A DNA stretch of 34,629 nucleotides from a virus. The notes beneath the pieces are model-generated. The model was not told the DNA's origin. It saw only the letters and a list, made by a program, of their open reading frames with translations, and searched no databases. A program made the position numbers and the translations under genes. The stretch is from IMG/VR virus record IMGVR_UViG_3300010354_007511, positions 1 through 34,629 of that record, one strand, 5' to 3'. Below are positions 4,738 through 33,586 of the stretch, piece by piece. How positions within the stretch are numbered: position 1 is the first letter of the stretch; the number at the start of each line of letters is the position of its first letter.

Positions 4738-4787
4738 ATTAAAAAATTACTAGATATTTATTGTAAACTAATATCATTAGGTGTTTC

Positions 4788-6173: not shown

Positions 6174-6182
6174 AGGTTTCAC

Positions 6183-6806
6183 ATGGCAAAGAAAAAGATA
6201 TTACTACTTTCAGATGATTTGAGACTAACATCAGGTATAGCAACTGTATCGAGAGATATAGTTTTAGGAACATTACATAAATATGATTGGGTACAAATAG
6301 GTGCGGCTATAAATCATCCAGATAAAGGTAAGGTAATGGATTTATCCGAGGATAGTAATAGTATAACTGGATTAAAAGATGGTTATGTAAAATTATACTG
6401 TCACGATAATTACGGAGATCCAATAACTTTGAGACGTGTAATTAAAATAGAAAAACCTGATGCAATTTTACATTTTACTGATCCAAGATTTTGGGGATGG
6501 CTGTACAATATGGAACATGAAATACGGACCGAAATACCTTTAATGTATTTGAACATTTGGGATGGTGCAGGTTTGATTGGAGATACAGCATCAGATCCAA
6601 TGTGGAATGCAGATGCATATTCTAGTTGTGATTTATTGATGGCTATTTCAAAACAAACATACGGTATAAATAATAGAATATTGAAAAGAGTTAATCAAGA
6701 TATTAGTAATAGTAGAATAACATATGTCCCACATGGAATAAATACAGATATATTTTTTCCAATAAAAGATGATAATAAATATTGGGAATCTTATTTAGAA
6801 CAGTAA
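6183..6806 (+). CDS. GT4-like glycosyltransferase, N-terminal half (ends at in-frame TAA)
   Basis: The 207-residue product is an N-terminal GT-B Rossmann domain: KKILLLSDDLRLTSGIATVSRDIV at the start, HFTDPRFWGWL, LNIWDGAGLIG, then DLLMAISKQTYGINNRIL and YVPHGINTDIFFPIK. This last element normally sits at the hinge before the second domain. The frame ends at TAA 6804-6806, but the same frame continues open after the stop and at once encodes the missing C-terminal domain, with the hallmark FVVMWNNRNIHRKHPGDVI. A full enzyme would be 6183-7607. This is either a nonsense mutation, a read-through stop, a sequence error or a genuinely split enzyme. It has no catalytic E-x7-E of its own. Confidence 0.75.
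   Translation: MAKKKILLLSDDLRLTSGIATVSRDIVLGTLHKYDWVQIGAAINHPDKGKVMDLSEDSNSITGLKDGYVKLYCHDNYGDPITLRRVIKIEKPDAILHFTDPRFWGWLYNMEHEIRTEIPLMYLNIWDGAGLIGDTASDPMWNADAYSSCDLLMAISKQTYGINNRILKRVNQDISNSRITYVPHGINTDIFFPIKDDNKYWESYLEQ
6804..6806 (+). other. In-frame TAA interrupting a glycosyltransferase gene
   Basis: The codon lies in frame with both flanking segments, codon 208 of a 475-codon frame. Translation beyond it reads LKIRNNNENAFVVMWNNRN, continuous with GT4 second-domain sequence, so no base shift is needed to join the halves. Other genes in the window use TAA as an ordinary stop, so genome-wide recoding is unlikely. Confidence 0.85.
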
Positions 6807-6845
6807 TTAAAAATAAGAAATAATAATGAAAATGCATTCGTTGTT

Positions 6846-7607
6846 ATGTGGAATAACAGAAATATACACAGAAAACATCCAGGTGATGTTATTCTTGCCT
6901 ATAAACATTTATGTCAATTAGTTGATAAGAATGGTGGAAATTCAAAAAAAGATTGTATTTTATTTATGAATACACAACCAACAGATAACAATGGAACAGA
7001 TTTGATTGCTGTGATAAATGAATTGTGTGTTGATAATACAGTTGTATTTAATAATAAAACAATAACGCCTGAACAATTAAATATATTCTATAATGCAGCT
7101 GATGTTGTTATGAATATGGCTTCAAATGAAGGATTTGGTCTTGGTACTGCAGAATCTCTTGCATCGGGAACACCAATCGTTGTCAATGTAACTGGAGGTT
7201 TGCAGGATCAATGTGGATTCATAAATCCAAAAACAGATACTTATTTTACTGCAGATGAATATATTGAAATACATACACTACATGATAAATACGAATGGGG
7301 TAATATTAAAAGTGGTGAGTGGGTAAAACCAGTTTGGCCATCAAATATTTCCCTACAAGGTTCAGTTCCAACACCATATATCTTCGATGATAGAGCAGAT
7401 TATAGGGAAATAGGTGATGCTCTATATGAATGGTACAAGACACCAAAAGAAAAGAGAAAAGAATGTGGATTGAAAGGCAGAGATTTTATTATGGAAGAAT
7501 CGGTTGGTATGAGTAAAAAAGAAATGTCAAACAGAATTATATCTAGCATAGATAACACCATTGAACATTTCAAACCAAGAAAAAGATTTGATATACATTT
7601 AATTTGA
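6846..7607 (+). CDS. GT4-like glycosyltransferase, C-terminal half
   Basis: Encodes the C-terminal GT-B domain: MWNNRNIHRKHPGDVILAYKHL, then DNTVVFNNKTITPEQLNIFYNAADVVMNMASNEGFGLGTAES and ASGTPIVVNVTGG. NEGFGLGTAE is the E-x7-E donor-binding motif of family 4 glycosyltransferases (about residues 95-105 of this piece). The listed ATG at 6846 has no visible ribosome site and falls inside the conserved first strand of the domain (FVVMWNNRN), so independent initiation there is doubtful. Most likely this is the distal part of the 6183 gene beyond the in-frame TAA. Whether it is expressed cannot be judged from sequence. Confidence 0.7.
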   Translation: MWNNRNIHRKHPGDVILAYKHLCQLVDKNGGNSKKDCILFMNTQPTDNNGTDLIAVINELCVDNTVVFNNKTITPEQLNIFYNAADVVMNMASNEGFGLGTAESLASGTPIVVNVTGGLQDQCGFINPKTDTYFTADEYIEIHTLHDKYEWGNIKSGEWVKPVWPSNISLQGSVPTPYIFDDRADYREIGDALYEWYKTPKEKRKECGLKGRDFIMEESVGMSKKEMSNRIISSIDNTIEHFKPRKRFDIHLI

Positions 7608-7614
7608 GGTAAAA

Positions 7615-8907
7615 ATGAGTAGTAAGCCCTATATGATATTCTGTGGACCAGTTGAAACTGTTAGTGGTTATGGATCACATGCTAGAGATTTAGTCACATC
7701 CCTTATACAAATGGATAAATTTGATATTAAAATAGTTGCAATAAATTGGGGAGATACACCAATGAATGCTTTGGATAAAAATAATCCGGAGCATTTTGAA
7801 ATAATTTCAAGAATAACAACTGAACCGATTACTTTTAAACCAGATATTTGGATTCAATGCACAATACCAACAGAATTTCAACAAGTCGGAAAATATAATA
7901 TAGGAATAACAGCTGGAATAGAAACTAATATTTGTTCTCCAGAATGGATAGAGGGTTGTAACAGAATGGATTTGATAATTGTACCATCAAAACATGCAAA
8001 GAATGTTTTTGAAGAAACATCATACGAAAAAAGAAATAGAGATAATGGTGAAATTATAGATTTAATAAAAATAAATAAACCAATAGAAGTTTTGCATGAA
8101 GGTGTTAGAACTGATATTTTTGATAAAAACAAAAAAATGAATGATGATGTAGTATCTACTTTAAATAAAATAAACGAAGATTTTGTATTTTTATTTGTTG
8201 GCCATTGGTTGAAGGGTGATTTTGGTCAAGATAGAAAAGATATATCAGGATTGATTCACACTTTTTTAAATACATTTAAAGACACAAAAAATCCACCGGC
8301 ATTAGTATTAAAAACATCAATGGGCACATTTTCACTAACAAGTCTTACTGAAATAAAAAATAAAATAAATGAAATAAAGAAAATGGTTGATGGAAAAAAA
8401 TTACCAAAAGTTTATGTTCTATTTGGTGACATTGGTGAAAATGAAATGAATGCCGTTTACAATCATAAGAAAATAAAAGCATTTGTATCTTTTACAAAAG
8501 GTGAAGGGTATGGCAGACCTATTGTAGAATTTATGACATCGGGTAAACCTGTTATAGTTTCCGGTTGGAGCGGTCATGTTGATTTTGTAAACTCAAATCA
8601 TAATATATTACTTCCTGGAAAATTAAATAAAGTTCATCCTAGTGCAATTTGGAATACAGTAATAAACGAAGGATCTAGTTGGTTTACTGCAGATTATGAT
8701 GTTGCATCGCAGGTATTGAAAGATGTACATTTAAACTATAAGAAATATCAATCAAAATCTAAAATGTCTATAATGGAAGTAAAACAAACGTGGTCATATA
8801 AAAGAATGTTTGATAAATTTACAAAAATATTAGATGAAAAATTACCAAAATTTGCAGAAAGAATTACTTTGTCTTTACCAACTATTAAAAAACCATCGGA
8901 GATTTAA
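7615..8907 (+). CDS. Glycosyltransferase family 4 (GT-B)
   Basis: Intact 430-residue GT-B glycosyltransferase. The N-terminal domain starts MIFCGPVETVSGYGSHARDLVTSLI, with a glycine-rich loop after strand 1. A middle LHEGVRTDIFD element marks the hinge. The second domain carries FVSFTKGEGYGRPIVEFMTSGKPVIVSGWSGHVDFV (about residues 285-320), in which EGYGRPIVE is the E-x7-E motif. It is close in design to the interrupted gene just upstream and shows what an intact member looks like. GAGG precedes the ATG. It should transfer a sugar from a nucleotide donor with retention; donor and acceptor are unknown. Confidence 0.85.
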   Translation: MSSKPYMIFCGPVETVSGYGSHARDLVTSLIQMDKFDIKIVAINWGDTPMNALDKNNPEHFEIISRITTEPITFKPDIWIQCTIPTEFQQVGKYNIGITAGIETNICSPEWIEGCNRMDLIIVPSKHAKNVFEETSYEKRNRDNGEIIDLIKINKPIEVLHEGVRTDIFDKNKKMNDDVVSTLNKINEDFVFLFVGHWLKGDFGQDRKDISGLIHTFLNTFKDTKNPPALVLKTSMGTFSLTSLTEIKNKINEIKKMVDGKKLPKVYVLFGDIGENEMNAVYNHKKIKAFVSFTKGEGYGRPIVEFMTSGKPVIVSGWSGHVDFVNSNHNILLPGKLNKVHPSAIWNTVINEGSSWFTADYDVASQVLKDVHLNYKKYQSKSKMSIMEVKQTWSYKRMFDKFTKILDEKLPKFAERITLSLPTIKKPSEI

Positions 8908-8910
8908 TAA

Positions 8911-9537
8911 ATGATTTCATATACAATAACGGTTCACAATGAAGCAGAAGAATTAAATCTTTTGTTAGGATATTTAATATCAAACATATCAGTAGATGAT
9001 GAAATTATTATTCAAGCGGATTCAGAAAGAGTTACCCAAGAAGTTGAAGATGTTATAGAAAATAATATAGATAAATTTTCAAATATAGTTTACGTTAAAT
9101 TTCCACTAAACAATGATTTTTCAGATTTTAAAAATAATTTAAAAAAACATTGTACAAAACAATGGATATTTAATATAGATGCAGATGAAGTACCATCCGA
9201 TTTTCTTATACAGAATCTTCATTTAATATTGAATGATAATTCTGATGTTGAAATGATATTGATTCCAAGATGGAATATAGTTGAAGGTATTACCGATGAT
9301 CATATAAATAAATGGGGATGGAAGTTTGATGATCAAAATAGAATAAATTGGCCGGATTATCAAACAAGAATATATCGTAATAATGAAAATATAAATTGGA
9401 AAAATAAAGTACATGAAAGACTCGAAGGATTTGAGAAATATTCTGCTTTTCCAGAAGAAAGAGAATTTTCATTATTACATTTTAAAACAATAGATAGACA
9501 AGAAAAACAAAATGAATTTTACAGTAAATTAGTTTAA
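8911..9537 (+). CDS. Glycosyltransferase family 2 (GT-A, WaaE-like)
   Basis: GT-A glycosyltransferase of 208 residues. It begins with MISYTITVHNEAEELNLLLGYL, the first strand and helix of GT2 enzymes. The metal-binding DxD is in WIFNIDADEVPSDF (about residues 87-100). The downstream pattern DYQTRIYRNNENINWKNKVHERLEGFE is typical of the WaaE/KdtX subgroup that adds sugars to lipopolysaccharide core, where an R-x-F/Y-R...W...VHE segment is conserved. It lies three bases after the preceding glycosyltransferase. Acceptor unknown. Confidence 0.8.
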   Translation: MISYTITVHNEAEELNLLLGYLISNISVDDEIIIQADSERVTQEVEDVIENNIDKFSNIVYVKFPLNNDFSDFKNNLKKHCTKQWIFNIDADEVPSDFLIQNLHLILNDNSDVEMILIPRWNIVEGITDDHINKWGWKFDDQNRINWPDYQTRIYRNNENINWKNKVHERLEGFEKYSAFPEEREFSLLHFKTIDRQEKQNEFYSKLV

Positions 9538-9548
9538 GGCATATTCGT

Positions 9549-10271
9549 ATGGTTGCTATAATATTACATCTATATTATCAAGATCTTTGGGGAGAATTTA
9601 AATCAAAAATAATTCCTCTATTAAATGATAACACACATCTGTATATTACTATAAATGAAGAATCGGAATATGCCGAAGATATGCGTAGTTTTTCAAAAAA
9701 TGTATTCATAGTTAAAAACAAAGGAATGGATTTTGGACCATTTGTTTATGTTTGGAACATGATAAAAGATGACGGGTATGATTATATTTTAAAATTACAT
9801 GGAAAAAAATCTGAAAGTGCTAGTATGAAATGGGGACAACATTTTGGTACGGTTTGGAGACATCAATTGATAAACCCTATTATCAATACACAAGAAAAGT
9901 TTGATACAATAATAAATTTTATGAAAGAAAATCCTACAATATACATGGCAGGATCACAAAGACATTTTTATGATACAGAAAGAGAACACATAAATCATGT
10001 AAATAGAATAAATTGTTTAACTTCTATTGAAAAACTTTTGAAAAAGGTGAACTCACAAGAACATGGTTGTTTTTTTGCAGGATCCATTTTTTTGATAACA
10101 ACAGATTATTTAAAGAAATTTTTTGGTGATTGTGATTTAAAATCTTTATATGAAGAATTTGAAGAATACTATTCATCAGACGGAGAAACTTTGGCACATG
10201 CAATGGAGCGTGTAATAGGTTATGGCGTAGAAAGTAATTCTGGAAAATTTTTAACATTAGAAAACAACTAA
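9549..10271 (+). CDS. RgpF-like rhamnan synthesis protein F family
   Basis: The 240-residue protein matches the RgpF/rhamnan synthesis F pattern: VAIILHLYYQDLWGEF at the N-terminus, a YITINEESE strand, NKGMDFGPFVYVWN (about residues 57-70; family form N-x-G-x-D-x-x-P-F), and YDYILKLHGKKS (about 77-88; family form K-x-H-x-K-K-S). RgpF-type proteins act in rhamnose-glucose polysaccharide synthesis and are treated as glycosyltransferases. It is shorter than many multidomain RgpF proteins and appears to be the core domain alone. It overlaps none of its neighbours but is separated by only a few bases. Confidence 0.8.
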   Translation: MVAIILHLYYQDLWGEFKSKIIPLLNDNTHLYITINEESEYAEDMRSFSKNVFIVKNKGMDFGPFVYVWNMIKDDGYDYILKLHGKKSESASMKWGQHFGTVWRHQLINPIINTQEKFDTIINFMKENPTIYMAGSQRHFYDTEREHINHVNRINCLTSIEKLLKKVNSQEHGCFFAGSIFLITTDYLKKFFGDCDLKSLYEEFEEYYSSDGETLAHAMERVIGYGVESNSGKFLTLENN

Positions 10272-10272
10272 A

Positions 10273-11067
10273 ATGATTTCAGTAGTAATACCAACATATA
10301 AATCACCATATTGTTTAGACTTATGTATTAAATCTGCATTAGAAGGTCAGTTTAATATAAATGAGATAATAGTTGTTGTTGATGGTACATACGATATTAA
10401 CAGAATTGTATTAGAAAAATACGATAAAGACATATCTGTTTTAAATTTGGAAAGTAATGTTGGAACTTGCCGTTCTACAAATCTGGGAGTCTATAATGCT
10501 ACCAATGAAAAAATACTAATAGTAAATGATGATAATGTTTTTCCTAAAAATTGGGATCAAAAACTAGAAAATTCTTTTGAAGAAAACACTGTAATTACAC
10601 CTAATCAAATAGAACCATATAGAAGTTGGTTTAGACAATTTGTAATATTAGATTTGGGAAAAACACCTATTGATTTTGATTTAGAAAAGTTTTGGACTAC
10701 ATCAGAAACTATATCAAAAGATGTAAAAAATAATCAAGGTTCAACTTTTCCCATATTTATATGTAAGAAAGATTTTTTAAGAGTAGGGGGTTTTGATGAA
10801 AGTTACCCATCACAGGCAGGTTATGTTGCAGATTGGGACTTCTTCTTGAAATGTGAATTGAGTGGTATGAGAATGATTAGAAATTACAATTTACATTTTT
10901 ATCACTTTGTTTCGGTATCTTCCAAGTCAGAAGAACAAAAAGAAAAATCAGAATCAGAAGAACAATTGTGTCATCAATACTTTGAATACAAGTGGAGAGA
11001 AAAAGCAAGACATAATTCAATTACAAATTCAAAAATGATTTCAAAATATTTTAAAGAGGATAATTAA
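10273..11067 (+). CDS. Glycosyltransferase family 2 (GT-A)
   Basis: The 264-residue GT2 enzyme opens with MISVVIPTYKSPYCLDLCIKSALEGQ and NEIIVVVDGTYD, the nucleotide-sugar binding half. LIVNDDNVFPKNWD (about residues 76-89) carries the acidic DxD-like motif. GGFDESYPSQAGYVADWDFFLKCELSGMRM (about 175-205) is the acceptor-side region, where the D/E-D catalytic base occurs. The C-terminus is charged and helical (SEEQKEKSESEEQ). The ATG comes one base after the RgpF-like stop, so they are probably co-translated. Confidence 0.85.
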   Translation: MISVVIPTYKSPYCLDLCIKSALEGQFNINEIIVVVDGTYDINRIVLEKYDKDISVLNLESNVGTCRSTNLGVYNATNEKILIVNDDNVFPKNWDQKLENSFEENTVITPNQIEPYRSWFRQFVILDLGKTPIDFDLEKFWTTSETISKDVKNNQGSTFPIFICKKDFLRVGGFDESYPSQAGYVADWDFFLKCELSGMRMIRNYNLHFYHFVSVSSKSEEQKEKSESEEQLCHQYFEYKWREKARHNSITNSKMISKYFKEDN

Positions 11068-11068
11068 A

Positions 11069-11725
11069 ATGGCAGTTGGAGTACATAAAGTAACAGAAGA
11101 TTTTGAACATAAATTAGCAGAATATACTGGAGCTCCTTATGTTATTTGTGTTGATAATCAAAGTAATGCATTGTTTCTATGTTTAACATATTATATGCAA
11201 AAAAATAATATAAAGGATATTACAGTTGATGTTCCTGAAAGAACATATCCGTCTGTTCCATGTGAGGTTATTCATGCCGGTGGTAAAGTAAATTTTACAC
11301 CAGTTAACGGTAATACTATAAAAGGTGCATATCAATTATCACCAACGAATGTATGGGATTCCGCTTTAAGATTTACCGCAGATATGTATATTCCAAATTC
11401 TTTTATGTGTATTTCATTTACAGGTCCATATAAACATTTGAAACTTTCAAAAGGTGGAGCAATATTACTCGATGATTATGATGCTTACAAGTGGTTGAAG
11501 AAAGCAAGATTTTCTGGAAGAGACGAGTGTAGTTATCACGAAGATGATTTTGATAATAATCCAGTTATTGGTTGGAACTTTTATATGATGCCAGAAATAT
11601 CAACAAGAGGATTATTGATGATTCAACAGTTTTACAATGCAGACGGTACGCCAAAACATAATGAAGATTTGGAACTACCATATCCAAATCTATCTAATTT
11701 CAAAGTGTATCAGTCTAATAAATGA
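11069..11725 (+). CDS. DegT/DnrJ-type PLP aminotransferase, C-terminally shortened
   Basis: N-terminal and central parts of the DegT/DnrJ/EryC1/StrS family, which transaminates nucleotide keto-sugars. Visible elements are FEHKLAEYTGAPYVICVDNQSNALFLCL (cofactor phosphate region), VDVPERTYPSVPCEVIHAGGK, and FMCISFTGPYKHLKLSKGGAILLDDYD (about residues 112-138), where the PLP lysine is expected. NFYMMPEISTRGLLMIQQF corresponds to the helix that normally precedes the small domain. The protein stops after about 218 residues, whereas family members are usually about 360-400, so the C-terminal small domain is missing and the next frame does not supply it. It may be inactive, a partner subunit or a non-catalytic sugar binder. 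Confidence 0.7.
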   Translation: MAVGVHKVTEDFEHKLAEYTGAPYVICVDNQSNALFLCLTYYMQKNNIKDITVDVPERTYPSVPCEVIHAGGKVNFTPVNGNTIKGAYQLSPTNVWDSALRFTADMYIPNSFMCISFTGPYKHLKLSKGGAILLDDYDAYKWLKKARFSGRDECSYHEDDFDNNPVIGWNFYMMPEISTRGLLMIQQFYNADGTPKHNEDLELPYPNLSNFKVYQSNK

Positions 11726-11751
11726 TTTTTTTTTGTTTTTAGGATATTGAA

Positions 11752-12489
11752 ATGACGTATACAATTTGTACAGCAACAAGAGATTTTGATGCGATAAATG
11801 ATTTCGTTGAATATCATTTAGATATTGGCTTTGATAAGATTGTGATATATGATAATTTTTCAAATCCGCCTGTTAATATTAAAAACGATAAAGTTGAGAT
11901 AATACGATGGGAACATGAATTGGTGGATTCAAATGCATTCAATGATCATATAACAAAAATACGTCAGAATAATATAGAAGGTTGGACGGCTTTTTTAGAT
12001 GAAGACGAATTTATCAACACAGACAACCGAAACATAAAAGATGCAATGGATGAATTTCAATCATATGATTGTTTATCTTTATGTTGGAGACTATTTGGTG
12101 ATAAGATTGATCCAGAAGATGAACATGAAACTAAATTTTGGAAAAAGTATAAATACCATATACCAAATGATGGACCAGGAAGAGATATTAACAGACATCA
12201 AAAAGTTATGTGTAAAAATAGTTCTATAATAGCAATTCACAATCCACACTATGCATTTTTGAAAACTGGAAAATTTTCTATAAATGTAAATGGACAAATT
12301 TCAAGAGGAGCATTTGCATTGGAACCGGTACATGAAAAAATTTGGATAGATCATTTTCATTGTAGAGGTTTGGATGATTACATAAAGAGAAAAAGTATAA
12401 AAATAAATAATAGATGCCCGAGCATAGAACGTATAACAGAATCATATACACATCATACTTCCTTGGCTACAAAAAAACTATTAGTATGA
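11752..12489 (+). CDS. Glycosyltransferase, GT92/Glyco_tranf_2_4-like
   Basis: The 245-residue protein has the pattern of the glycosyltransferase family 92/DUF23 group: TATRDFDAINDFVEYHLDIGFDKIVIYDNFS (about residues 6-36), a short strand with IIRWEH, then WTAFLDEDEFINT (about 79-91) holding the DxD-like acid cluster. A later HNPHYAFLKTG and IWIDHFHCRGLDDYIKR segment fits the conserved C-terminal half, where H and R residues follow the acceptor pocket. It is preceded by an A/T-rich 26-base gap. The specific sugar is unknown. Confidence 0.75.
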   Translation: MTYTICTATRDFDAINDFVEYHLDIGFDKIVIYDNFSNPPVNIKNDKVEIIRWEHELVDSNAFNDHITKIRQNNIEGWTAFLDEDEFINTDNRNIKDAMDEFQSYDCLSLCWRLFGDKIDPEDEHETKFWKKYKYHIPNDGPGRDINRHQKVMCKNSSIIAIHNPHYAFLKTGKFSINVNGQISRGAFALEPVHEKIWIDHFHCRGLDDYIKRKSIKINNRCPSIERITESYTHHTSLATKKLLV

Positions 12490-12509
12490 AATTAAAGAAA
12501 AAGTAAATT

Positions 12510-13178
12510 ATGAAAGTGGCAATAATGCAACCATATTTTTTTCCACATTTTGCATATTTTCAACTAATATCTGCAGTTGATTTTTATGTAAATTTGGATC
12601 ATGTTTCATTTATGAAAAGAAGTTATATGGTGAGAAACAGAATAAAAAATAATACATCAATAAATATTTCTGTAAAAAACGCAAGTCAAAACAAAAAATG
12701 TACAGAAGTTTTTATAGAATCATCATGTCATTATATTGATAAGTTTAAAAAAACTATTAAATTTTTGTACGGTAAACATAAAAATTTTGAATTGATTTTT
12801 AATACGATAATTGAACCAAACTTCAATTCTTCAGAAAAAACAATATCTCAATTTAACATCGAAATAATAAAGTCTATTTGTGATTTTCTTGATATAAAAA
12901 CAAATATAATAAATTCGTCAGAGGGAATTACAACCGAAAAAAGAGAAGATGGATTGATAGATATAGTTAAAAAATATAATGGATTAACATACATAAATGC
13001 AATAGGCGGAATTGATTTATATGATAAACAATATTTTAAAAACAAAGGAATTGACTTATTTTTTTTAAAAACAAATGTAAATAGTTTTGTAGATAAAAAT
13101 ATTTCAATACTTGATTTGTTATTTGAATATGATAAAGAATTTATAGTAAATGAAATAGATAATTATGAACTAATATAA
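12510..13178 (+). CDS. WbqC-like family protein
   Basis: The 222-residue protein begins MKVAIMQPYFFPHFAYFQLISAVDFYVNLDHVSFMKRSYMVRNRIK, which is close to the WbqC family signature (M-Q-P-x-Y-x-P-x-x-G/A-Y-F...D...Y-D...R-N-x-I). WbqC proteins are encoded in O-antigen and capsule clusters and are thought to work in amino-sugar biosynthesis, though the reaction is not well defined. The remainder has regular alpha/beta spacing (GLTYINAIGGIDLYDKQYFKNKGIDLFFLK) as in the family C-terminus. It sits between a glycosyltransferase and an acetyltransferase. Confidence 0.85.
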   Translation: MKVAIMQPYFFPHFAYFQLISAVDFYVNLDHVSFMKRSYMVRNRIKNNTSINISVKNASQNKKCTEVFIESSCHYIDKFKKTIKFLYGKHKNFELIFNTIIEPNFNSSEKTISQFNIEIIKSICDFLDIKTNIINSSEGITTEKREDGLIDIVKKYNGLTYINAIGGIDLYDKQYFKNKGIDLFFLKTNVNSFVDKNISILDLLFEYDKEFIVNEIDNYELI

Positions 13179-13190
13179 ACGGAATGTTAT

Positions 13191-13871
13191 ATGAATAAAA
13201 AAAATAAAGTTATTATCTTTGGAACATTAGATTGCGCAGAATTAGCACATTATTATTTGACAAATGACAGTGAATATGATGTAGTTGCATTTACTATGAA
13301 TGAAGAATATATTGTGAATAATAAATTTAAACCGAGAGGATCAAAAATAGAATATGATATTATTCCTTTTGAAAAACTAGAAAAAATATATCCACCAAAA
13401 GATTATTTTTTATTTGCACCAATGTCTGGCGCAAAAATGAATACATTGCGTAAAAAAATATATTTGGAAGGAAAACAAAAAGGGTATGAATATATTTCTT
13501 ACATTTCATCAAAAGCAACTATTTTTGATAATGATATAGGAGAAAATTGTTTTATTTTGGAAGATAATACAATACAACCTTTTGTTACTATTGGGAATAA
13601 TGTAGTTATGTGGAGTGGAAATCATATAGGACATGACAGTATAATAGATGATCACGTATTTTTTACATCCCATATAGTATTATCTGGTCATTGTAATGTA
13701 AAAGAGAGGGCATGGATAGGAGTGAACGTAACGATAAGAGATTTTACAACAATAGGTAAAGCATCTTTAATTGCAATGGGTTCTCTGATAACAAAATCAA
13801 CTGATGAAAATGGATTTTATATGGGAAATCCTGCAAAAAAACAAGACAAGTTATCATTTGAGGTATATTGA
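13191..13871 (+). CDS. PglD/NeuD-like sugar O- or N-acetyltransferase
   Basis: The 226-residue protein has an N-terminal Rossmann-like domain (KVIIFGTLDCAELAHYYL) followed by a left-handed beta-helix with hexapeptide repeats (IFDNDIGENCFILEDNTIQPFVTIGNNVVMWSGNHIGHDSIIDDHVFFTSHIVLSGHCNVKERAWIGVNVTIRDFTTIGKASLIAMGSLI). This is the layout of PglD and NeuD, which acetylate UDP-amino sugars or sialic acid precursors. The histidine in GNHIGHDS is in the position of the family catalytic base. The C-terminus ends with the usual MGNPAKK motif. Its presence argues that a modified amino sugar is made or expected. Confidence 0.85.
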   Translation: MNKKNKVIIFGTLDCAELAHYYLTNDSEYDVVAFTMNEEYIVNNKFKPRGSKIEYDIIPFEKLEKIYPPKDYFLFAPMSGAKMNTLRKKIYLEGKQKGYEYISYISSKATIFDNDIGENCFILEDNTIQPFVTIGNNVVMWSGNHIGHDSIIDDHVFFTSHIVLSGHCNVKERAWIGVNVTIRDFTTIGKASLIAMGSLITKSTDENGFYMGNPAKKQDKLSFEVY

Positions 13872-13872
13872 T

Positions 13873-14778
13873 ATGTGGGAAAAATTTGGTATCATATTTG
13901 ACGATCATCATTGTCAGTTGCCCGTTGTTGATGAATATGAAAAGTTTTATAGAATATATTATTCCACAAGAATTGATGGAAAAAGTAATCCATTATTTAT
14001 TGATGTTGATAAAAATAATCCTAAAAAAATAATAAAAAAACAAAACAATCCTATTTTGAAATTGGGTAAAAGAGGATCATTCGATTGGGCAGGAATAATG
14101 CCAACTGATATAATAAGCTTTGGAAATATAAAATATCTTTATTATATTGGTTGGTCATTAAGAATTGACGTACCCTATCACAATACTTTGGGTTTAGCTA
14201 TTAGTAATGATGATGGTAATACTTGGACTAAATTTTCAGATGGTCCTATTTTTTCAACTAATAATGTAGAAACAGGATATATTGGAACCGTAGAAATACT
14301 AATAGAAAATGGTTTGTGGAAAATGTGGTATTTATCTTGTAGAAACTGGATAGAATCAGATAAAAAATTTGAACCAATATATGATATAAAATACGCAATT
14401 TCAGAAGATGGAATACGATGGAATCCCACAAATGACATTTGTATAAATCTTGAAAGGTTAGAAGGGGGTATTTCTAGTTGTAGAGTTATTAAAGAAAATA
14501 ATGGGTATAAAATGTGGTATTCTATAAGAGATACTTTCGATTATAGGTTAAATAAAAATCATTCATATAGAATAAAAACAGCAAATTCATCGGATGGTAT
14601 AGTTTGGAATAAAAACAATAATATTGATTTGGATATATCTGATGAAAATGAATGGGAAAATATTATGGTATGTTATCCTTTTATTATTGAAAAAAATGAT
14701 CATCTATTGATGTTCTATAATGGAAATGGATTTGGTAAAACTGGAGTAGGATATGCTAAACAACAAAGAATTAAATGA
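13873..14778 (+). CDS. Five-bladed-propeller glycosidase-like protein (GH43/GH32/GH130 type)
   Basis: The 301-residue protein has repeated beta-propeller strands typical of glycoside hydrolase clans with a five-bladed fold: YRIYYSTRIDGKSNPLFI, DWAGIMPTDII, KYLYYIGWSLR, LGLAISNDDGNTWTKFSDGPI, WKMWYLSCRNW, IKYAISEDGIRWNP, YKMWYSIRD and HLLMFYNGNGFGKTGVGYAK. The exact glycosidase or phosphorylase class cannot be fixed by eye. In-frame starts exist further upstream inside the acetyltransferase gene, but the ATG at 13873, with TTGAGG at 13858-13863, is a much better start. It might trim, transfer or only bind the glycan. Confidence 0.65.
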   Translation: MWEKFGIIFDDHHCQLPVVDEYEKFYRIYYSTRIDGKSNPLFIDVDKNNPKKIIKKQNNPILKLGKRGSFDWAGIMPTDIISFGNIKYLYYIGWSLRIDVPYHNTLGLAISNDDGNTWTKFSDGPIFSTNNVETGYIGTVEILIENGLWKMWYLSCRNWIESDKKFEPIYDIKYAISEDGIRWNPTNDICINLERLEGGISSCRVIKENNGYKMWYSIRDTFDYRLNKNHSYRIKTANSSDGIVWNKNNNIDLDISDENEWENIMVCYPFIIEKNDHLLMFYNGNGFGKTGVGYAKQQRIK

Positions 14779-15496
14779 AAATGGATTTATAGTATTGAAA
14801 AACTTTTTTGACGCTGATTACATAACAAGTGTTAGGGTTGGTGCTGAAAATATATTTAAAATACAATTCAATCGTTTTGGGTACGATGGTGATTTTAAAA
14901 GTAATATGATTAGACTATTCACAGAACATGAAGATGTTTTCATAAATTGTGGAAAAATAATACAAACCGGTTTAATAGAATTGTATAGTCTGGCAATAAA
15001 TGATAAATTATTATCATATATCAAAGGTATAGGATTGGAATTTCCAAATTTATGTACAAGACCTGTTTTATTTTTCAATCATCCAAAATTGGCAAAAGAA
15101 GAACATTATTACAAAACTCCACCACATCAAGATTGGCATTCTATGCAATCTAGTAGCGATTCACTAGTTGTTTGGGTTCCATTAGTAGATGTAAACATTG
15201 AAAATGGTACATTATTATTATGGCCAAAAAGTCACAAACTCGGTCCATTGCCATTCAAATCCGTTGGTGGTTTTGCATCCGTAGAAACAAATAATGATTT
15301 TATCCAGTCGGATTTTAATATTGGCGATATTGTCATATTTTCAACATTATTGGTACATTCATCTGGAGATATTTTAAACGATACAATAAGATGGTCATGC
15401 CATTTTAGATATACAAATATGTTGGATGATGACTTTATTTTAAATGGATTTCCAAATCCATACATATATCAGCCAATAACTAAACAAATAAAATGA
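14753..15496 (+). CDS. PhyH-type Fe(II)/2-oxoglutarate dioxygenase
   Basis: The 247-residue protein has the phytanoyl-CoA dioxygenase fold signature. Metal ligands are HQD in TPPHQDWHSM (about residues 123-128) and a distal histidine in STLLVHSSGDI (about 197-207). An arginine follows in DTIRWSCHFRY and would bind 2-oxoglutarate. The strand LVVWVPLVDVNIENGTLLLWPKSHK is a strong family marker. Its first 26 bases overlap the end of the upstream gene, so the two are coupled. Such oxygenases hydroxylate small molecules or sugars; within this cassette, glycan hydroxylation is a plausible inference. Confidence 0.85.
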   Translation: MLNNKELNENGFIVLKNFFDADYITSVRVGAENIFKIQFNRFGYDGDFKSNMIRLFTEHEDVFINCGKIIQTGLIELYSLAINDKLLSYIKGIGLEFPNLCTRPVLFFNHPKLAKEEHYYKTPPHQDWHSMQSSSDSLVVWVPLVDVNIENGTLLLWPKSHKLGPLPFKSVGGFASVETNNDFIQSDFNIGDIVIFSTLLVHSSGDILNDTIRWSCHFRYTNMLDDDFILNGFPNPYIYQPITKQIK

Positions 15497-18551: not shown

Positions 18552-18582
18552 TTTGTCAATTCACATAAATTACTTATATTAG
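18552..18582 (+). promoter_or_regulatory. Bacteroidota-type promoter candidate (TTTG-N19-TATATTAG)
   Basis: TTTG at 18552-18555 and TATATTAG at 18575-18582 are exactly 19 bases apart, the standard spacing for Bacteroidota housekeeping promoters (TTTG-N19-TAnnTTTG). The -7 element fits at seven of eight positions. It lies in the 119-base gap before the T9SS-CTD gene at 18636 and could let host RNA polymerase read this module directly. Confidence 0.55.
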
Positions 18583-18635
18583 TGTTGAATGATAAAAGAA
18601 CTAATTGTATTATTATTAACCAATATGGAGTTACG

Positions 18636-19076
18636 ATGATGAAGTATATCATTGCTCTTCTTTTTTGTTGTACCATAGGTACTGCAAATGAAACTTCACC
18701 ACACCTTCTGAAAAAGATTGTTGTTGGTGGAAACAATAATGCGTCACTTGGTCAAGTGATTGCTGGTTACTCCAATGGATTCCATATTGGAATCCGTATT
18801 CCGAGTAAAGTCGCGCTGTCTGTTGGTGATGAACAAGATTACCAACTGTCAAGATTTGATGCCCAAGTCTTTCCAAATCCAACTAATAATGGGTACTTTA
18901 ATGTGAAAGCAGATGACATCAAACACATTCAGATTTTTGATTTGAATGGTAAATCAGTCGGTAATTATTTTAATTTTACTGGCGAGACAATAAACCTTTC
19001 TAATAAGGGTGTGTATATTGTTCGTATAACAAACAAGAACAATTCAGTTTATTCAACAACAGTTATTTTCAATTAA
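18636..19076 (+). CDS. Exported protein with T9SS type A C-terminal sorting domain
   Basis: The 146-residue protein has a signal peptide (KYIIALLFCCTIGTAN, about residues 3-18). A short linker follows, with ASLGQVIAGYSNGFHIGIRIP. The C-terminal domain starts at VFPNPTNNGYFNV (about residue 78) and continues IQIFDLNGKSVGNYF, INLSNKGVYIVRIT and VYSTTVIFN. This is the pattern of the Por secretion system type A sorting domain (PNP-x-G, V-x-D-x-x-G-K, G-x-Y-x-V), which directs proteins through the type IX system to the surface of Bacteroidota cells. GGAG at 18627-18630 supports 18636 or 18639; in-frame sequence further upstream lacks a start with a site. There is no obvious enzymatic domain; a surface display or receptor-masking role is speculative. 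Confidence 0.8.
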   Translation: MMKYIIALLFCCTIGTANETSPHLLKKIVVGGNNNASLGQVIAGYSNGFHIGIRIPSKVALSVGDEQDYQLSRFDAQVFPNPTNNGYFNVKADDIKHIQIFDLNGKSVGNYFNFTGETINLSNKGVYIVRITNKNNSVYSTTVIFN

Positions 19077-19097
19077 AAAATTATGAGGAATTTATTT

Positions 19098-20270
19098 ATG
19101 CGTTACTTTATGCTCGCACTATGTTTTATCTTTGCAGTTAATCTTTCTGCACAAACAAGTTTACAATATCAGGCACACGTTCCTTCCGGAACACCTGCTC
19201 AGTCAAAGTTTTCCGTATATTTGGCAACAGATGCATTTGATGAAAATTCGCATCTTAATACATCTGCACTTTGGTATGTAGAAAATGTTGATATTACAGT
19301 ATCAAATGGTATTGTCAATTACACACTATCAAATGTTCCAGATAACATTCTTGTTGCAAATCAATCAAATATTTTTGTGTACGCGTATGTCAATGGACAA
19401 ACTCTTGGTAGATTGCCACTTTACAAAGTACCGTATGCTTTGAAGTCACAATTTTCAACAACTGCAGAACTTGCTAACAATGCAACAAATGCTTTATCTG
19501 CAAAAACTGCAGAAAAAGCCGATACTGCTAAATTCGCAACAAATGCCGGTTCATCCGTAACATCTACTTTTGCAGACTCAACCAGAATCAGTAACCGATC
19601 AAATACATCTGGATTTGCAGATACTGCTCGTGCCGCCGGTAAGGCAACTTTATCTGACTTGGCAACATATTCATCAACATCTGCTCATGCTGCTAAAGCC
19701 GATACATCTGTTTATGCTAATACTGCAGGTCATGCTTTTGATGCAGACACATCAACATTTGCTTACGATGCTAACCATGCAGATTTTTCTTCAACTTCTG
19801 CATATGCAACAAATGCAGCTCGTTCTGTAATCGCAGATACTGCAAAAACATTGATTGATAATTCAATTGAACATCGTCATTTCCAATCACAATCCGTTAG
19901 ACTGTCTTCACTTGAAGGTAGTTCAACGGCTCCGGTTGGTTCTTATGCGATTCGTGGTGCTAGTGGTATTTCATGGGAAGTAAATCCACAACATAGAACA
20001 TCCAGTGTATCAATTTATACTGCTGCTCCGGCATCATTACCAACAGATTCACGATGGGTTGTAAGTCGTGTTGCTGTTGATTATGATATTGCAAGTGTAA
20101 CATCACCAACAACCGGCCAACTTGTAACGGTTTACAATGGTGCCACTGCTAACAATGTATTCATAAAAAATTCTGTTTGGGGAACAGATACTGCACTTGA
20201 TTATCCCGTTTGGCCTGGTCAATCAAGAACACTTTGGTATAATGGAACAACATGGGTTGTAGTTCAATAA
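19098..20270 (+). CDS. Exported A/D/T-repeat fibre-like protein
   Basis: The 390-residue protein has a clear signal peptide (MRYFMLALCFIFAVNLSAQ). The N-terminal domain TSLQYQAHVPSGTPAQSKFSVYL ... RLPLYKVPYALKSQF is followed by about 120 residues of degenerate repeats around A-x-x-A-x-x-A-D-T (about residues 125-250), which are typical of trimeric fibre shafts and of Bacteroidota surface proteins. The final 130 residues (SVSIYTAAPASLPTDSRWVVSRVAVDYD ... TLWYNGTTWVVVQ) look like a compact beta domain. An ATG at 19083 is in frame, but GAGGA at 19085-19089 serves the ATG at 19098. A phage tail fibre would not normally have a signal peptide, so this may be a protein exported from the infected cell. 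Confidence 0.7.
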   Translation: MRYFMLALCFIFAVNLSAQTSLQYQAHVPSGTPAQSKFSVYLATDAFDENSHLNTSALWYVENVDITVSNGIVNYTLSNVPDNILVANQSNIFVYAYVNGQTLGRLPLYKVPYALKSQFSTTAELANNATNALSAKTAEKADTAKFATNAGSSVTSTFADSTRISNRSNTSGFADTARAAGKATLSDLATYSSTSAHAAKADTSVYANTAGHAFDADTSTFAYDANHADFSSTSAYATNAARSVIADTAKTLIDNSIEHRHFQSQSVRLSSLEGSSTAPVGSYAIRGASGISWEVNPQHRTSSVSIYTAAPASLPTDSRWVVSRVAVDYDIASVTSPTTGQLVTVYNGATANNVFIKNSVWGTDTALDYPVWPGQSRTLWYNGTTWVVVQ

Positions 20271-20698: not shown

Positions 20699-21304
20699 AT
20701 GGAAATTGGTAAATTAAAAGGTCAAATATCTGATAATGTTTATAGTGAAATACCGTCTGTTATAGATAAGTTTGGAATAAATACCCCAACAAGATTATCA
20801 CACTTCCTGGGACAATGCGCCCACGAAAGCGGTAACTTTAAGTTTACAACAGAAAACCTAAATTATTCAACAAAAGGTTTATTAGCAACATTTCCGAAGT
20901 ATTTTAAACAACCTGGACTTGCTGAAGCTTATGCTAGAAATCCGGAACGTATTGCTTCAAGAGTTTATGCAGATAGAATGGGTAATGGTTCAGAAGGAAC
21001 TGCCGAAGGTTGGAAATTTAGAGGCAGAGGTTACATACAACTCACCGGTAAAAGTAACTATACTGCATTCGATAAGTTTGTGAATGAAAACATTATACTC
21101 GAACCAGATTTAGTATCTAAAAAATATCCATTACTATCAGCGGGATGGTTTTTTCATAAGAACAAATTAAATACAATATCCGATAAAGGATTAACCGAAA
21201 CAGTTATACTCGAATTAACAAAAAGAATAAACGGTGGGACAAACGGTTTGCAAGACCGCATCAAATACACGGTAAAGTTCGGTAAGATACTTGGAGTAAT
21301 TTAA
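20699..21304 (+). CDS. GH19 endolysin (chitinase-like muramidase)
   Basis: The 201-residue glycoside hydrolase family 19 protein cleaves the peptidoglycan sugar backbone at lysis. HFLGQCAHESGNFKFTTENLNYSTKGLLATFPKYF (about residues 35-69) holds the two catalytic glutamates expected in HES (E43) and EN-x-N-Y-S (E52). VYADRMGNGSEGTAEGWKFRGRGYIQLTGKSNYTAF is the conserved substrate-cleft region. No signal peptide or binding domain is present, so a holin would be needed for release. AAGGA precedes the ATG. Confidence 0.92.
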   Translation: MEIGKLKGQISDNVYSEIPSVIDKFGINTPTRLSHFLGQCAHESGNFKFTTENLNYSTKGLLATFPKYFKQPGLAEAYARNPERIASRVYADRMGNGSEGTAEGWKFRGRGYIQLTGKSNYTAFDKFVNENIILEPDLVSKKYPLLSAGWFFHKNKLNTISDKGLTETVILELTKRINGGTNGLQDRIKYTVKFGKILGVI

Positions 21305-23229: not shown

Positions 23230-25596
23230 ATGGCAAAAAGAAGAAGAATACCAAATGATACAATATCGGATATGCTAACTGGAAAGTCTGGCATAGATGC
23301 ACTTAAAAATTTATCCGATAATAGATCTATTGGTAAAATAGATTATGTTGCAATGCAATTAAGTCAGCCATCGTTAGTGTTCAAAGAATTGATTACTGAC
23401 GAAGAAAAACTTATGATTACTGATAGACATGAAGAATTTAATAAAGCTCTTTGGTCAGAAGAAGATATACGATTAACGAAAATATTTACAAGTTCTTTAC
23501 AGTCAAACGAAACTAAAATATATTATAGAAATGTTTACAAAACAAATGATGCGGATTTAGGTCCAGAATTTACAATATCATATGGTGATTATTATGGCTA
23601 TGGATCATCTACTGGATCTTTTGGAAATATATCAACAAATGTTTATGAATCAAAAGCAATATACTCAAAATATCAAAATCTATTATTAGGTTCTGATAAA
23701 GAATTTTTTAAGTTTAATTTTCCAAGCTGGTCTAATGTAATTAGTAGTGGTGCCAGAATTTTATCTGCAGGTAAAAGTATAAGCACAAATTTAACAACAT
23801 ATAATTCAGAACAACAATTATATTTTGTGTCAAACTTTCCACTATCAAATTGGAAATCTGTATCAAGTGGTTATACATTTACTACTGCACTAAAGCAAGA
23901 TGGTACTCTGTGGTCATGGGGAAGTAATGGTAATGGTGAGTTGGGTATAGGAACAACAGAAAATTCAAATGTTCCTGTTCAAATAGGAACGGATAGTGAT
24001 TGGGTATTTCATACATCTGGAGCATTTCATTCATTTGCTATAAAATCGAATGGAACATTATGGACTTGGGGAAAAGGATCGGATTATAGACTTGGAACGG
24101 GAGCAAATACAAATGTTTTATCTCCAGTTCAAATAACATTACCCTTTCCTAAAATATGGAAATATGCAGCTGCAGGACAAGGACATTCTATTGCAGTAGA
24201 TAGTGATGGAAAACTTTGGGGATGGGGATATAATTCATCTGGACAATTAGGAACCGGTGATACTTCAAATAAAACTATACCAACACAAATTGGAAGTGAT
24301 ACCGATTGGGCTACCGTATATGCCTCAATAGAATACTCGGGAGACTGTTTTAGTTTAGCATTAAAAGAAAATGGTGAATTATATGGAATGGGATTCAACG
24401 AAAATTATCAACTTGGTTTAAATAATTCTTTAAGTCCAATAACAAATCCTACAAGAGTAACACGTACTGGACAAAATGATTTGTATGTGAAGGCATCCGC
24501 TGGTGGTAAAAGTAGTATTGCATTAGATTTTAATTCAAATTTGTGGAATTGGGGAACTTTCAATAGTGCAATTTGGCCATCAGCTAGCATATTTAGTGTT
24601 GCTGGTAGTAATTGGATTGATGTTAAAATATCAGCATATAACGCAATAGGATTAAAGTCTAATGGATCTGTTTATACGTGGGGTGAAAACGATTTTGGTA
24701 GTTTAGGGAATGGAAGTACCGATAGTTATTTGAATAGTCCTAAATCCATAATAATAAATCCAATACTAGAAGAAGATAAAAAAGTAGATGTAAGAAACAT
24801 ATTAGCCATTGAAACATCAGATTATGATACATTTGGTTCATTTTCTACAATAGTATCTAAATACGATTTCGATGAAAAAGAATATCAAGAGTCTGATTTT
24901 ATTTATGTAATAAATGTAAACAGAAATAGATTCAAAGATAATATAAAACCTGGAACTTGGCAATTATCTTTACTTCCAGTTGATGTATACAATAGACCGA
25001 TAACAGGAAGCATTCCCATTACTTTGATAGATGATTCCAGTTTATACAATTACGATGTTGATAAAAAAGATGTATACAATGTTTATAGTGGAAGTTTAGA
25101 AGATGGATTTAATATGAGTGAATATTCTGTACCATATGGTTTGTTCTATCCAAATCATGGCATTATAGTATTGAATGGTCGCTCTCTTTATTCATTTGCC
25201 TCCATTTTTACAAATAGATCTCTACCAACTGCGAGCGGTCAATTTGAATATTCTTCTAATGCAGATACGTTGTTTACATCGATAAGTGCATCTATGGATT
25301 ATGATTCATCAAAATATTACTTTCAAGGAATGTCATCAGAAAGAATAGAATCTTCTTACATATTTGTTCGTATAAAATCTGATGAATTTAATTACACTAA
25401 CAATCCCACATATGTTACTGGTGATAATGGTAGAATAAATCCGAAATATAGAAATAATGATTTTGGATTAACTTACATAACAACTATTGGGTTATATGAT
25501 GATGAAGAAAATCTTGTTGCTGTTGCTAAATTAAGCAGACCAATAAGAAAAACAATAGAGAAAGAAATGGTAATAAAAATTAGAATACGATATTAA
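23230..25596 (+). CDS. Virion-type protein with RCC1-like propeller (paralogue 1)
   Basis: The 788-residue protein has three parts. Residues 1-170 carry KIYYRNVYK ... FTISYGDYYGYGSSTGSFG ... ESKAIYSKYQNLLL, a pattern I associate with structural proteins of marine T4-like phages. Residues about 210-510 contain at least six RCC1-type repeats of about 50 residues, each with an L-W-x-W-G core (first cores near residues 226, 277, 327, 383, 437 and 480), which would fold as a beta-propeller. Residues about 540-788 carry FIYVINVNRNRFKDNIKPGTWQLSLLPV, PYGLFYPNHGIIVLNG and DFGLTYITTIGLYDDEENLVAVAKLSRP. The gene downstream is a paralogue with the same three-part design. The propeller is probably a surface-exposed binding module. 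Confidence 0.75.
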   Translation: MAKRRRIPNDTISDMLTGKSGIDALKNLSDNRSIGKIDYVAMQLSQPSLVFKELITDEEKLMITDRHEEFNKALWSEEDIRLTKIFTSSLQSNETKIYYRNVYKTNDADLGPEFTISYGDYYGYGSSTGSFGNISTNVYESKAIYSKYQNLLLGSDKEFFKFNFPSWSNVISSGARILSAGKSISTNLTTYNSEQQLYFVSNFPLSNWKSVSSGYTFTTALKQDGTLWSWGSNGNGELGIGTTENSNVPVQIGTDSDWVFHTSGAFHSFAIKSNGTLWTWGKGSDYRLGTGANTNVLSPVQITLPFPKIWKYAAAGQGHSIAVDSDGKLWGWGYNSSGQLGTGDTSNKTIPTQIGSDTDWATVYASIEYSGDCFSLALKENGELYGMGFNENYQLGLNNSLSPITNPTRVTRTGQNDLYVKASAGGKSSIALDFNSNLWNWGTFNSAIWPSASIFSVAGSNWIDVKISAYNAIGLKSNGSVYTWGENDFGSLGNGSTDSYLNSPKSIIINPILEEDKKVDVRNILAIETSDYDTFGSFSTIVSKYDFDEKEYQESDFIYVINVNRNRFKDNIKPGTWQLSLLPVDVYNRPITGSIPITLIDDSSLYNYDVDKKDVYNVYSGSLEDGFNMSEYSVPYGLFYPNHGIIVLNGRSLYSFASIFTNRSLPTASGQFEYSSNADTLFTSISASMDYDSSKYYFQGMSSERIESSYIFVRIKSDEFNYTNNPTYVTGDNGRINPKYRNNDFGLTYITTIGLYDDEENLVAVAKLSRPIRKTIEKEMVIKIRIRY

Positions 25597-25606
25597 GGTT
25601 TTATAC

Positions 25607-27937
25607 ATGGATAAAAATACATTCATAAGAAAAAAAATAGATTTGTCAACATCATTTTTATATGATAGAAAAGAAGTTGTAACTGCTCCGATGTGGCCTA
25701 ATAATTCTTCTGAATTGAGAAACATATACACAAGCTCAAACCAACCACATCATCAAAAAATATATTATAGAACCATATTTTCAGATTCAGCTAAAACGGG
25801 TAGTCTTGATGTTGATTTTAGTATAGCTTACGGTCATTATGCTGGCAGTGGTTCATCAACTGGATCATATGGATTGTTAGAATATAATGGTGCAGTGAGT
25901 GAATCACTTGCAATATACTCACAATATCGTAGTATGTTATATGAACAGGATAAAAGAAAATATTTATCAGATGGTAAATTTAGATTCTATGGATTGACGG
26001 ATGTTTACTTGGGTGCATACGCATTTGGTAGTAATAATATTGACAACGTTTTAAATTATTTAGATAGAGTAAAAATACCTGGAGTAAAATCATTTAATTT
26101 AAATAAAATAAAAAGTATATCATCTTACAAGTACGATGAATACGCCAATGCTAATATAAAATTTTATCTCATAAATGAAGAAGGTAAATTATTCTACAAT
26201 CAAAATGGTCAATTTGATCAAATAATTCAGATAGGAACAGATGAAGATTGGGAAATGGTATCATTTGGTAGTTCACATAATCTTGCTATAAAACAAGATG
26301 GAACTTTGTGGGGGTGGGGTAGTAATTCATTCGGACAATTGGGTATAGGATTTTCAGGAAATAGCTATAGCGAACCAACAAAAATAGGAATACAAAAAAA
26401 TTGGAAACAGGTGTATGCTGGTAGGGATTTTGCATTTGCAATAAATTCAAATGGAGAATTATATGCATGGGGAAGGAATATAGATACTGATTCAATAGGT
26501 GGTGGGATTTTAGGATTTGGCGATTCTCTTGATAGATATTATCCACAAAAAGTTGGTTCAAATACTTGGAAAAAAATATCATTAAATACTATAAATAGTA
26601 CAATACATGGTGTTTCTAAATATTGTATTCATGCGATAGACACAGACGGTAAATTATGGGGATGGGGTAATAATTCATTAGTAAATTATTCAATAGAACC
26701 AACACAACTTGGAACTGATACGAATTGGAAAGATATAGCCGCTGGATATGATTTTGCAATAGGAATACAAGGTGACAACAATGAGTTGTATGGTTGGGGT
26801 TCAACCGGATTATCTGGAGAATTATTAGCCGCATTAACTCCCATTCCAAGTATAACATATCCATCGTCAGTACCATTTTCTTCAAAGAAAAACTTAACAT
26901 CCGGTAACATATACGGAATACCAGAATCAGGTTGGACATCTGTGGATTGTGGACCAGATTTTACATTTGCAATAAACTCAAATGGAAATATGTACTGTTG
27001 GGGTAATAATTCAGACAATCAATTAAATGTTTCCGCAAATCCATTAGAGATTTCAATACAGCAATCAAGTCAATTATCCGGATGGGATATAATTTCTTGT
27101 GGATCTTTTAACTCAACGGCTGTAATAAATACACCAAATAGAAATGTCAATAGTATGGTTTCGGATGATATTTACGTTATCAATTTTAACCGATGGAATT
27201 TTAGAGACAAGATAGATTCAGGTACTTGGCAATTATCATTAAGAACTGTTTATACTGGTTCTGGTCAACAATTATTATATGAACCAGCTCCATCAACTTC
27301 ACCACCATATTCAACCATAACTTTGATAGATGAATCTGTAAATTTACAAGGTACTGAAGCAGAAAATCCCATGTATGATGTTACCAGTAAAGGTGGTATA
27401 GTTTATGGTATTTATAGAGGTAGTATTGAAAACGGAATAGATGAATCTGCTGTTGATTCTCCTTATGGACTTTTCTTTCCAGAAAATGGTATAATAATTT
27501 TGAATGGAGAAATTTTAGTTAATCCTGGATCCAGACAATCAATAACTATACAAACACGAAGAACACCCGCAACATCAAGTGGTGCTTATCCATTTTCATC
27601 AAATGCTGATTTAATGTATGCATCTATAAAAGGTGCAATGGAATTAGATGAAAAGTATTTTATTGCAAATACAGTTGAAACAAAAATTCCAACATATTGT
27701 TTTATACGAATAAATAATGATGAATTTAACTATACAATGAATAGAACAAAGTACCAAAAGAATGATAGTTTTTTATTAAAAGATAAATTTAGAACGGTTC
27801 CATACCCATTCACTTACATAACAAGTATTGGTTTGTACAATGACAATGATGATTTATTGGCTGTTGCTAAATTAAGTAAACCTATATTTAAAAACCCTTC
27901 AACAGAATTAGTTGTTAAAATTAAATTAGACATATAA
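25607..27937 (+). CDS. Virion-type protein with RCC1-like propeller (paralogue 2)
   Basis: The 776-residue tandem paralogue of the preceding gene starts 11 bases after it. The N-terminal backbone reads KIYYRTIFSD ... FSIAYGHYAGSGSSTGSYG ... ESLAIYSQYRSMLYEQDK. RCC1-type cores lie near residues 234, 284, 349, 393 and 461, with longer insertions than in paralogue 1. The C-terminal backbone has DDIYVINFNRWNFRDKIDSGTWQLSLRTV, PYGLFFPENGIIILNG and PYPFTYITSIGLYNDNDDLLAVAKLSKP. The backbone halves are better conserved between paralogues than the propellers, which fits a constant scaffold with a varying exposed domain. Last plus-strand gene before the convergent terminator. Confidence 0.75.
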   Translation: MDKNTFIRKKIDLSTSFLYDRKEVVTAPMWPNNSSELRNIYTSSNQPHHQKIYYRTIFSDSAKTGSLDVDFSIAYGHYAGSGSSTGSYGLLEYNGAVSESLAIYSQYRSMLYEQDKRKYLSDGKFRFYGLTDVYLGAYAFGSNNIDNVLNYLDRVKIPGVKSFNLNKIKSISSYKYDEYANANIKFYLINEEGKLFYNQNGQFDQIIQIGTDEDWEMVSFGSSHNLAIKQDGTLWGWGSNSFGQLGIGFSGNSYSEPTKIGIQKNWKQVYAGRDFAFAINSNGELYAWGRNIDTDSIGGGILGFGDSLDRYYPQKVGSNTWKKISLNTINSTIHGVSKYCIHAIDTDGKLWGWGNNSLVNYSIEPTQLGTDTNWKDIAAGYDFAIGIQGDNNELYGWGSTGLSGELLAALTPIPSITYPSSVPFSSKKNLTSGNIYGIPESGWTSVDCGPDFTFAINSNGNMYCWGNNSDNQLNVSANPLEISIQQSSQLSGWDIISCGSFNSTAVINTPNRNVNSMVSDDIYVINFNRWNFRDKIDSGTWQLSLRTVYTGSGQQLLYEPAPSTSPPYSTITLIDESVNLQGTEAENPMYDVTSKGGIVYGIYRGSIENGIDESAVDSPYGLFFPENGIIILNGEILVNPGSRQSITIQTRRTPATSSGAYPFSSNADLMYASIKGAMELDEKYFIANTVETKIPTYCFIRINNDEFNYTMNRTKYQKNDSFLLKDKFRTVPYPFTYITSIGLYNDNDDLLAVAKLSKPIFKNPSTELVVKIKLDI

Positions 27938-31641: not shown

Positions 31642-33586
<1,945 letters not shown>

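Follow-up and report, generated by a model that had tools for sequence, protein, structure and literature searches.

Why would a phage encode a protein with a sorting domain of the type IX secretion system (T9SS)? This question is raised by one small gene in a 34,629-nucleotide stretch of viral DNA (IMG/VR record IMGVR_UViG_3300010354_007511), here called the window. An earlier note on this DNA had ascribed to the gene product a signal peptide and a C-terminal T9SS domain, had placed the gene in a phage behind a Bacteroidota-like promoter, had drawn host information from it, and had proposed a search with T9SS type A models and a search for homologues in related phages, both of which were run. 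What the note overlooked is that the small gene belongs to a conserved pair, the other member of which encodes a predicted exported, fibre-like protein. Here, we describe this pair (Table 1) and propose, with modest confidence, that the locus is probably a two-gene unit for surface display, carried by a lytic-type, T4-like phage with a T9SS-bearing host; its export, partnership, timing, and purpose are what we infer.

Table 1. Features of the two-gene unit and its upstream region, in window positions
Feature	Position	Strand	Basis
Promoter-like TATATTAGTG upstream of the unit	18575..18584	+	2 in window versus 0.42 expected; recurs in other phages
Small T9SS cargo gene (predicted), first of the unit	18636..19076	+	Open ORF, 146 aa
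Signal peptide (predicted), about residues 1-17	18636..18686	+	Sequence features, heuristic scan; MKYIIA...-type start kept in homologues
Mature peptide between signal peptide and sorting domain, about 60 aa	18687..18866	+	Top conservation among 19 phage homologues
T9SS type A C-terminal sorting domain (CTD)	18867..19073	+	PF18962, TIGR04183; 19/19 homologues match
Partner fibre-like gene, 395 aa, own signal peptide (predicted) ending NLSAQ	19083..20270	+	18/18 testable phage contigs
Fibre N-terminal beta domain, common to cellular secreted proteins	19155..19457	+	hhalign 96% probability, E 4.9e-9 (cellular set); AF2 pLDDT mostly 60-88
A/D/T-rich repeats (ADTA..A type), fibre-shaft-like	19458..19847	+	Sequence, fibre alignment
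Conserved fibre C-terminal domain (GQLVTIYNGSTAN...QSRTLW.NG..W)	19848..20267	+	Fibre alignment

Genome context

The phage setting was confirmed. In addition to being an IMG/VR virus record, the window holds a T4-type clamp loader gene (phrog_168, 2.9e-86), a GH19 endolysin gene (20699-21304, neighboring the pair), and a tail-collar gene. The gp23 major capsid family, absent from this 34.6-kb fragment, is present in three related long contigs (G001, G509, and G510), and the phage is therefore T4-like, as the clamp loader also indicates. Elsewhere in the window, phage-type GroEL and GroES genes lie side by side (31642-33267 and 33284-33586, minus strand), and two adjacent large RCC1-repeat proteins (23230-27937; first protein, Pfam 1.1e-52) stand where tail proteins are expected. 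About one-third of the fragment (4114-15496) is occupied by an extended series of glycosyltransferase-like and sugar-modification-like genes, among which phytanoyl-dioxygenase-like and acyltransferase-like open reading frames were recognized by eye; the corresponding block of contig L003 differs and holds a thiamine-diphosphate enzyme-like open reading frame.

The Bacteroidota-like promoter fared less well. The promoter argument is weak: the window shows no enrichment of exact matches to the Bacteroidota promoter consensus (5 versus 3.75 expected), its own box, TATATTAG, is one base off TAnnTTTG, and only 6 of 20 upstream regions contain that motif (1.4 expected). A related box, TATATTAGTR, occurs at 18575-18584 of the window and recurs ahead of the unit in several (about half) of the other phages (L066, L068-L070, L073, and L075, roughly at position −42 relative to the small gene); it could be a host-type or a phage-specific promoter element.

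The small protein

The 146-residue protein starts with MMKYIIALLFCCTIGTANE, a basic n-region followed by a hydrophobic core, and its signal peptide was predicted from such sequence features and from conservation across homologues. Its C-terminal part contains PNPT (residues 80 to 83), DLNGK (102 to 106), and GVYIVRI (125 to 131), and both CTD models matched residues 78 to 144 above their curated cut-offs: PF18962 over its full profile (2.8e-10; 40.8 bits, cut-off 27) and TIGR04183 (3.7e-10; 39.7 bits, cut-off 23). The architecture described in the earlier note was thus upheld, and the outcome that the note had named as refuting its reading, a failure to match the CTD models, did not occur. Domain models and conservation together support a predicted T9SS type A cargo.

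Two close relatives from a first search (87% and 75% identical) have the same gene order, and further searches, in which the partner gene and later the mature-peptide alignment served as queries, raised the total to 19 other IMG/VR contigs that encode the small protein. All 19 full-length homologues tested (window copy included) matched TIGR04183 at E ≤ 0.01. Pairwise dN/dS was 0.11 to 0.23 for the whole small gene, 0.05 to 0.15 for its CTD, and 0.14 to 0.17 for the fibre-like gene, so that purifying selection acts on both genes, CTD included. Since the matching homologues come from separate phage contigs and are under purifying selection, the CTD match is not due to chance, and its low dN/dS indicates that the domain is kept by selection. 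One could suppose instead that the CTD is a decaying, unused leftover of a gene captured from a host, given that the cargo is short and that the scores of some CTDs lie close to the cut-off or under it; but the dN/dS values, the complete set of matches, and the PNP, DLxG, and GVY-type motifs, largely kept among the phage homologues, make this highly improbable.

The best conserved stretch of the protein is the mature peptide (LLKKIV.GGN.NA.LGQV.AGY.NG.H.GIR.P), with 13 invariant columns among the 19 phage homologues. Neither the small protein nor the fibre-like protein was matched by tblastn in 50,697 public phage genome records. As a separate observation, the T9SS CTD consensus gave only weak matches in public phage records, among them two huge-phage lineages (LR756502, 325937-326140; LR756501/LR756503, 48860-49051; genomes of 642 kb and 735 kb).

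The two-gene unit

Wherever the contig extends far enough (18 of 18: window, L002, L003, L065-L069, L071-L073, and L075-L081), a fibre-like gene of 328 to 407 codons with its own predicted signal peptide lies 4 to 21 bp 3' of the small gene; L070 and L074 stop before the fibre position and were left out of this count. The hydrophobic N-terminus of the fibre-like protein, with a NLSAQ/NAFAG-type cleavage motif, is conserved in the phage homologues. The protein has no sorting domain and matched no Pfam or NCBIfam family, nor did its conserved C-terminal domain. The tail-collar gene, which lies further 3', varies from phage to phage and was therefore left out of the unit. In one phage (L057, 4778-5317; also L076, 4176-4715), a gene is inserted immediately before the unit; its product is thioredoxin-like and has a signal peptide and a WCPPC motif.

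Structure-based searches gave little. AlphaFold models of the small protein and of the fibre were poor (mean pLDDT of 43 each), Foldseek with these models returned nothing at E ≤ 0.001, a PDB sequence search yielded chance-level matches only, and no PADLOC defence model matched.

Cellular counterparts

In a sample of 296 genomes, the fibre had one direct cellular match, in a Bacteroidota genome (E 3.2e-5), and the adjoining upstream gene there encodes a small protein that combines a signal peptide with a T9SS domain. Searching with a profile of the phage fibres gave three further cellular loci; in two of them a small gene of this kind, with a signal peptide, immediately precedes the fibre, and in the third such a gene lies downstream. 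With a profile of the fibre N-terminal domain, relatives were detected in 103 of 395 genomes; the phage and cellular N-domains are homologous (Table 1), and the cellular relatives also begin with signal-peptide-like segments. Some genomes encode several paralogues of the fibre homologue. SprA is encoded by all 10 cellular genomes tested, each of which has fibre-gene relatives. The partner gene's relatives in cells support a predicted T9SS-bearing, Bacteroidota-type host for the phage (Bacteroidota in the GTDB sense), as the earlier note had suggested from the small gene.

Among the 30 best cellular loci, the upstream neighbor of the fibre carries a T9SS domain in 11; eight of these genes are small (L023, L025, L027, L030, L031, L037, L040, and L045) and three are large (L026, L029, and L036), and four (L025, L027, L030, and L040) fall below the curated TIGR04183 cut-off. 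In ten genomes, the number of T9SS domains per genome ranges from 35 to at least 150, or about 1.3 to 4% of genes (assuming 0.9 genes per kb), so that about 1 such neighbor is expected by chance (binomial P for 11 of 30, about 1e-8 at 4%), with the caveat that surface-protein genes may cluster in general. The enrichment is not circular, because the fibre domain was the sole criterion by which the loci were picked. In the other 19 loci, no T9SS gene was detected in the adjoining upstream position, and the fibre therefore does not always need a T9SS neighbor.

Among the systems closest to the phage unit are GTDB Bacteroidota pairs of a small T9SS cargo (SSG..GQ..GFW) and a "YQG" fibre-like protein (L019, L021, L022, L025, L027, L030, L031, L037, L040, and L045). 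They share with it the gene order, signal peptides on both proteins, and the homologous fibre N-domain, and the small gene mostly has a T9SS CTD (that of L022 matched no model). They differ from it in that the mature part of the small protein is longer and not detectably homologous, and in that the fibres are mostly larger, some ending in an S74 fibre chaperone. A search of 395 genomes at E ≤ 0.001 revealed no cellular homologue of the phage mature peptide, and its comparison with the cellular small proteins was not significant (hhalign, 2 to 3%), a GQ..G motif being all they have in common. As the mature peptides lack significant homology, only position and CTD connect the small genes of cells with those of phages. 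Capture of the phage unit from a host would thus rest on the fibre domain, the CTD, and gene order, none of which gives a direction of transfer. Two other candidates were dropped: a CTD suspected by eye to be fused to the fibre homologue L097 (G046; IPNPHDG...SGRYEYRL) had no NCBIfam or Pfam support, and the comparison of the phage C-terminal fibre domain with a cellular one (L098) was not significant.

These data bear on whether the fibre-like protein is simply a virion tail fibre, with the small gene as an accessory and the signal peptides misread. Its A/D/T repeats are phage-fibre-like, a tail-collar gene lies next door with large RCC1-type putative tail genes downstream, and the S74 chaperone of some cellular homologues would suit a fibre of this kind. 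Tail proteins, however, are assembled in the cytoplasm, which conflicts with a predicted signal peptide whose hydrophobic core and cleavage motif are conserved among phages and whose like is found on the cellular N-domain relatives, and we regard a virion role as improbable.

They bear also on whether the small protein acts by itself, as a T9SS-secreted effector of about 60 residues directed at the host surface or at neighboring cells, the fibre being an independent periplasmic or surface protein that shares its operon. The strong conservation of the mature peptide, which appears to be phage specific, agrees with such a role, but the strict pairing in phages and the repeated pairing in cells speak for a joint one, and a lone effector seems rather unlikely to us.

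Proposed function

Proteins with a Sec signal and a type A CTD pass through SprA, and the CTD is removed. If the surface-display unit that we favor works by this route, the small protein would enter the periplasm via Sec, be recognized by the host T9SS through its CTD, cross the SprA translocon, and lose the CTD; what remains, either surface-bound or released into the medium, would be a peptide of about 60 residues. Such a peptide would be small for an enzyme and large enough for an anchor, an adaptor, or a peptide ligand. The fibre-like protein would also be exported by Sec, with no sorting domain of its own, and the small protein is most likely the T9SS-sorted partner that helps the fibre to reach the cell surface or to stay there. 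A more specific version is that the minimal peptide is an export or anchoring partner acting in trans on a fibre that lacks a sorting signal, a cellular Bacteroidota mechanism adopted by T4-like phages to coat infected cells; we offer this version tentatively. The pair would alter the surface of the infected cell and would be made late, late expression being probable because the pair adjoins the tail-collar and endolysin genes.

The purpose is most plausibly receptor blocking, by which re-adsorption of progeny or superinfection would be prevented. Phage T5 offers an analogy in Llp, an outer-membrane lipoprotein that masks the receptor, protects progeny, and excludes other phages. The likeness would be functional only, lying in a phage-made surface protein with the protective or exclusion role proposed here, whereas Llp is a lipoprotein and not T9SS cargo. 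Next in rank comes adhesion, in which a captured host adhesin pair would make infected cells aggregate or attach and so favor spread, rather than block superinfection. The resemblance of the cellular homologues to secreted trimeric fibres, with their several paralogues in some genomes, is consistent with adhesion, but nothing here separates it from masking, and we treat it as a possible, less probable purpose.

Relation to known systems

The use of T9SS cargo by phages, which the earlier note presented as new, is already known in principle. Cryophage, a 76-kb Bacteroidetes phage, encodes cargo with a T9SS type A sorting domain, as does the phage described here; hijack of the host T9SS was proposed and superinfection exclusion already suggested (PMC7468147, 2020). 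Its cargo proteins (an endoglucanase, a GH39 protein, and a PA14-domain protein) vary between phage variants, whereas the cargo described here is about 60 aa long, is conserved, belongs to a T4-like lineage, and has a fixed fibre partner. In crAss-like contigs, T9SS sorting domains likewise occur near phage structural genes, and one open reading frame joins a BACON domain to a T9SS domain (PMC6949934, 2019); the phage group and the cargo are different, and the available part of that paper describes no fibre pair. In the literature searched, we found no description of a conserved unit of minimal cargo and fibre or of its cellular counterpart. What is new here is a minimal cargo with a fixed fibre partner, its persistence in a T4-like lineage, and the cellular counterpart.

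What had been a single curious domain is now a conserved two-gene unit that a T4-like phage lineage shares with many bacterial genomes, and the function of the phage unit and the role of the cellular pair both become testable in one system. The unit marks T9SS-bearing Bacteroidota as likely hosts of uncultured T4-like phages. If the small protein does export the fibre in trans, it would add a route to the surface via T9SS for proteins that have no sorting domain.
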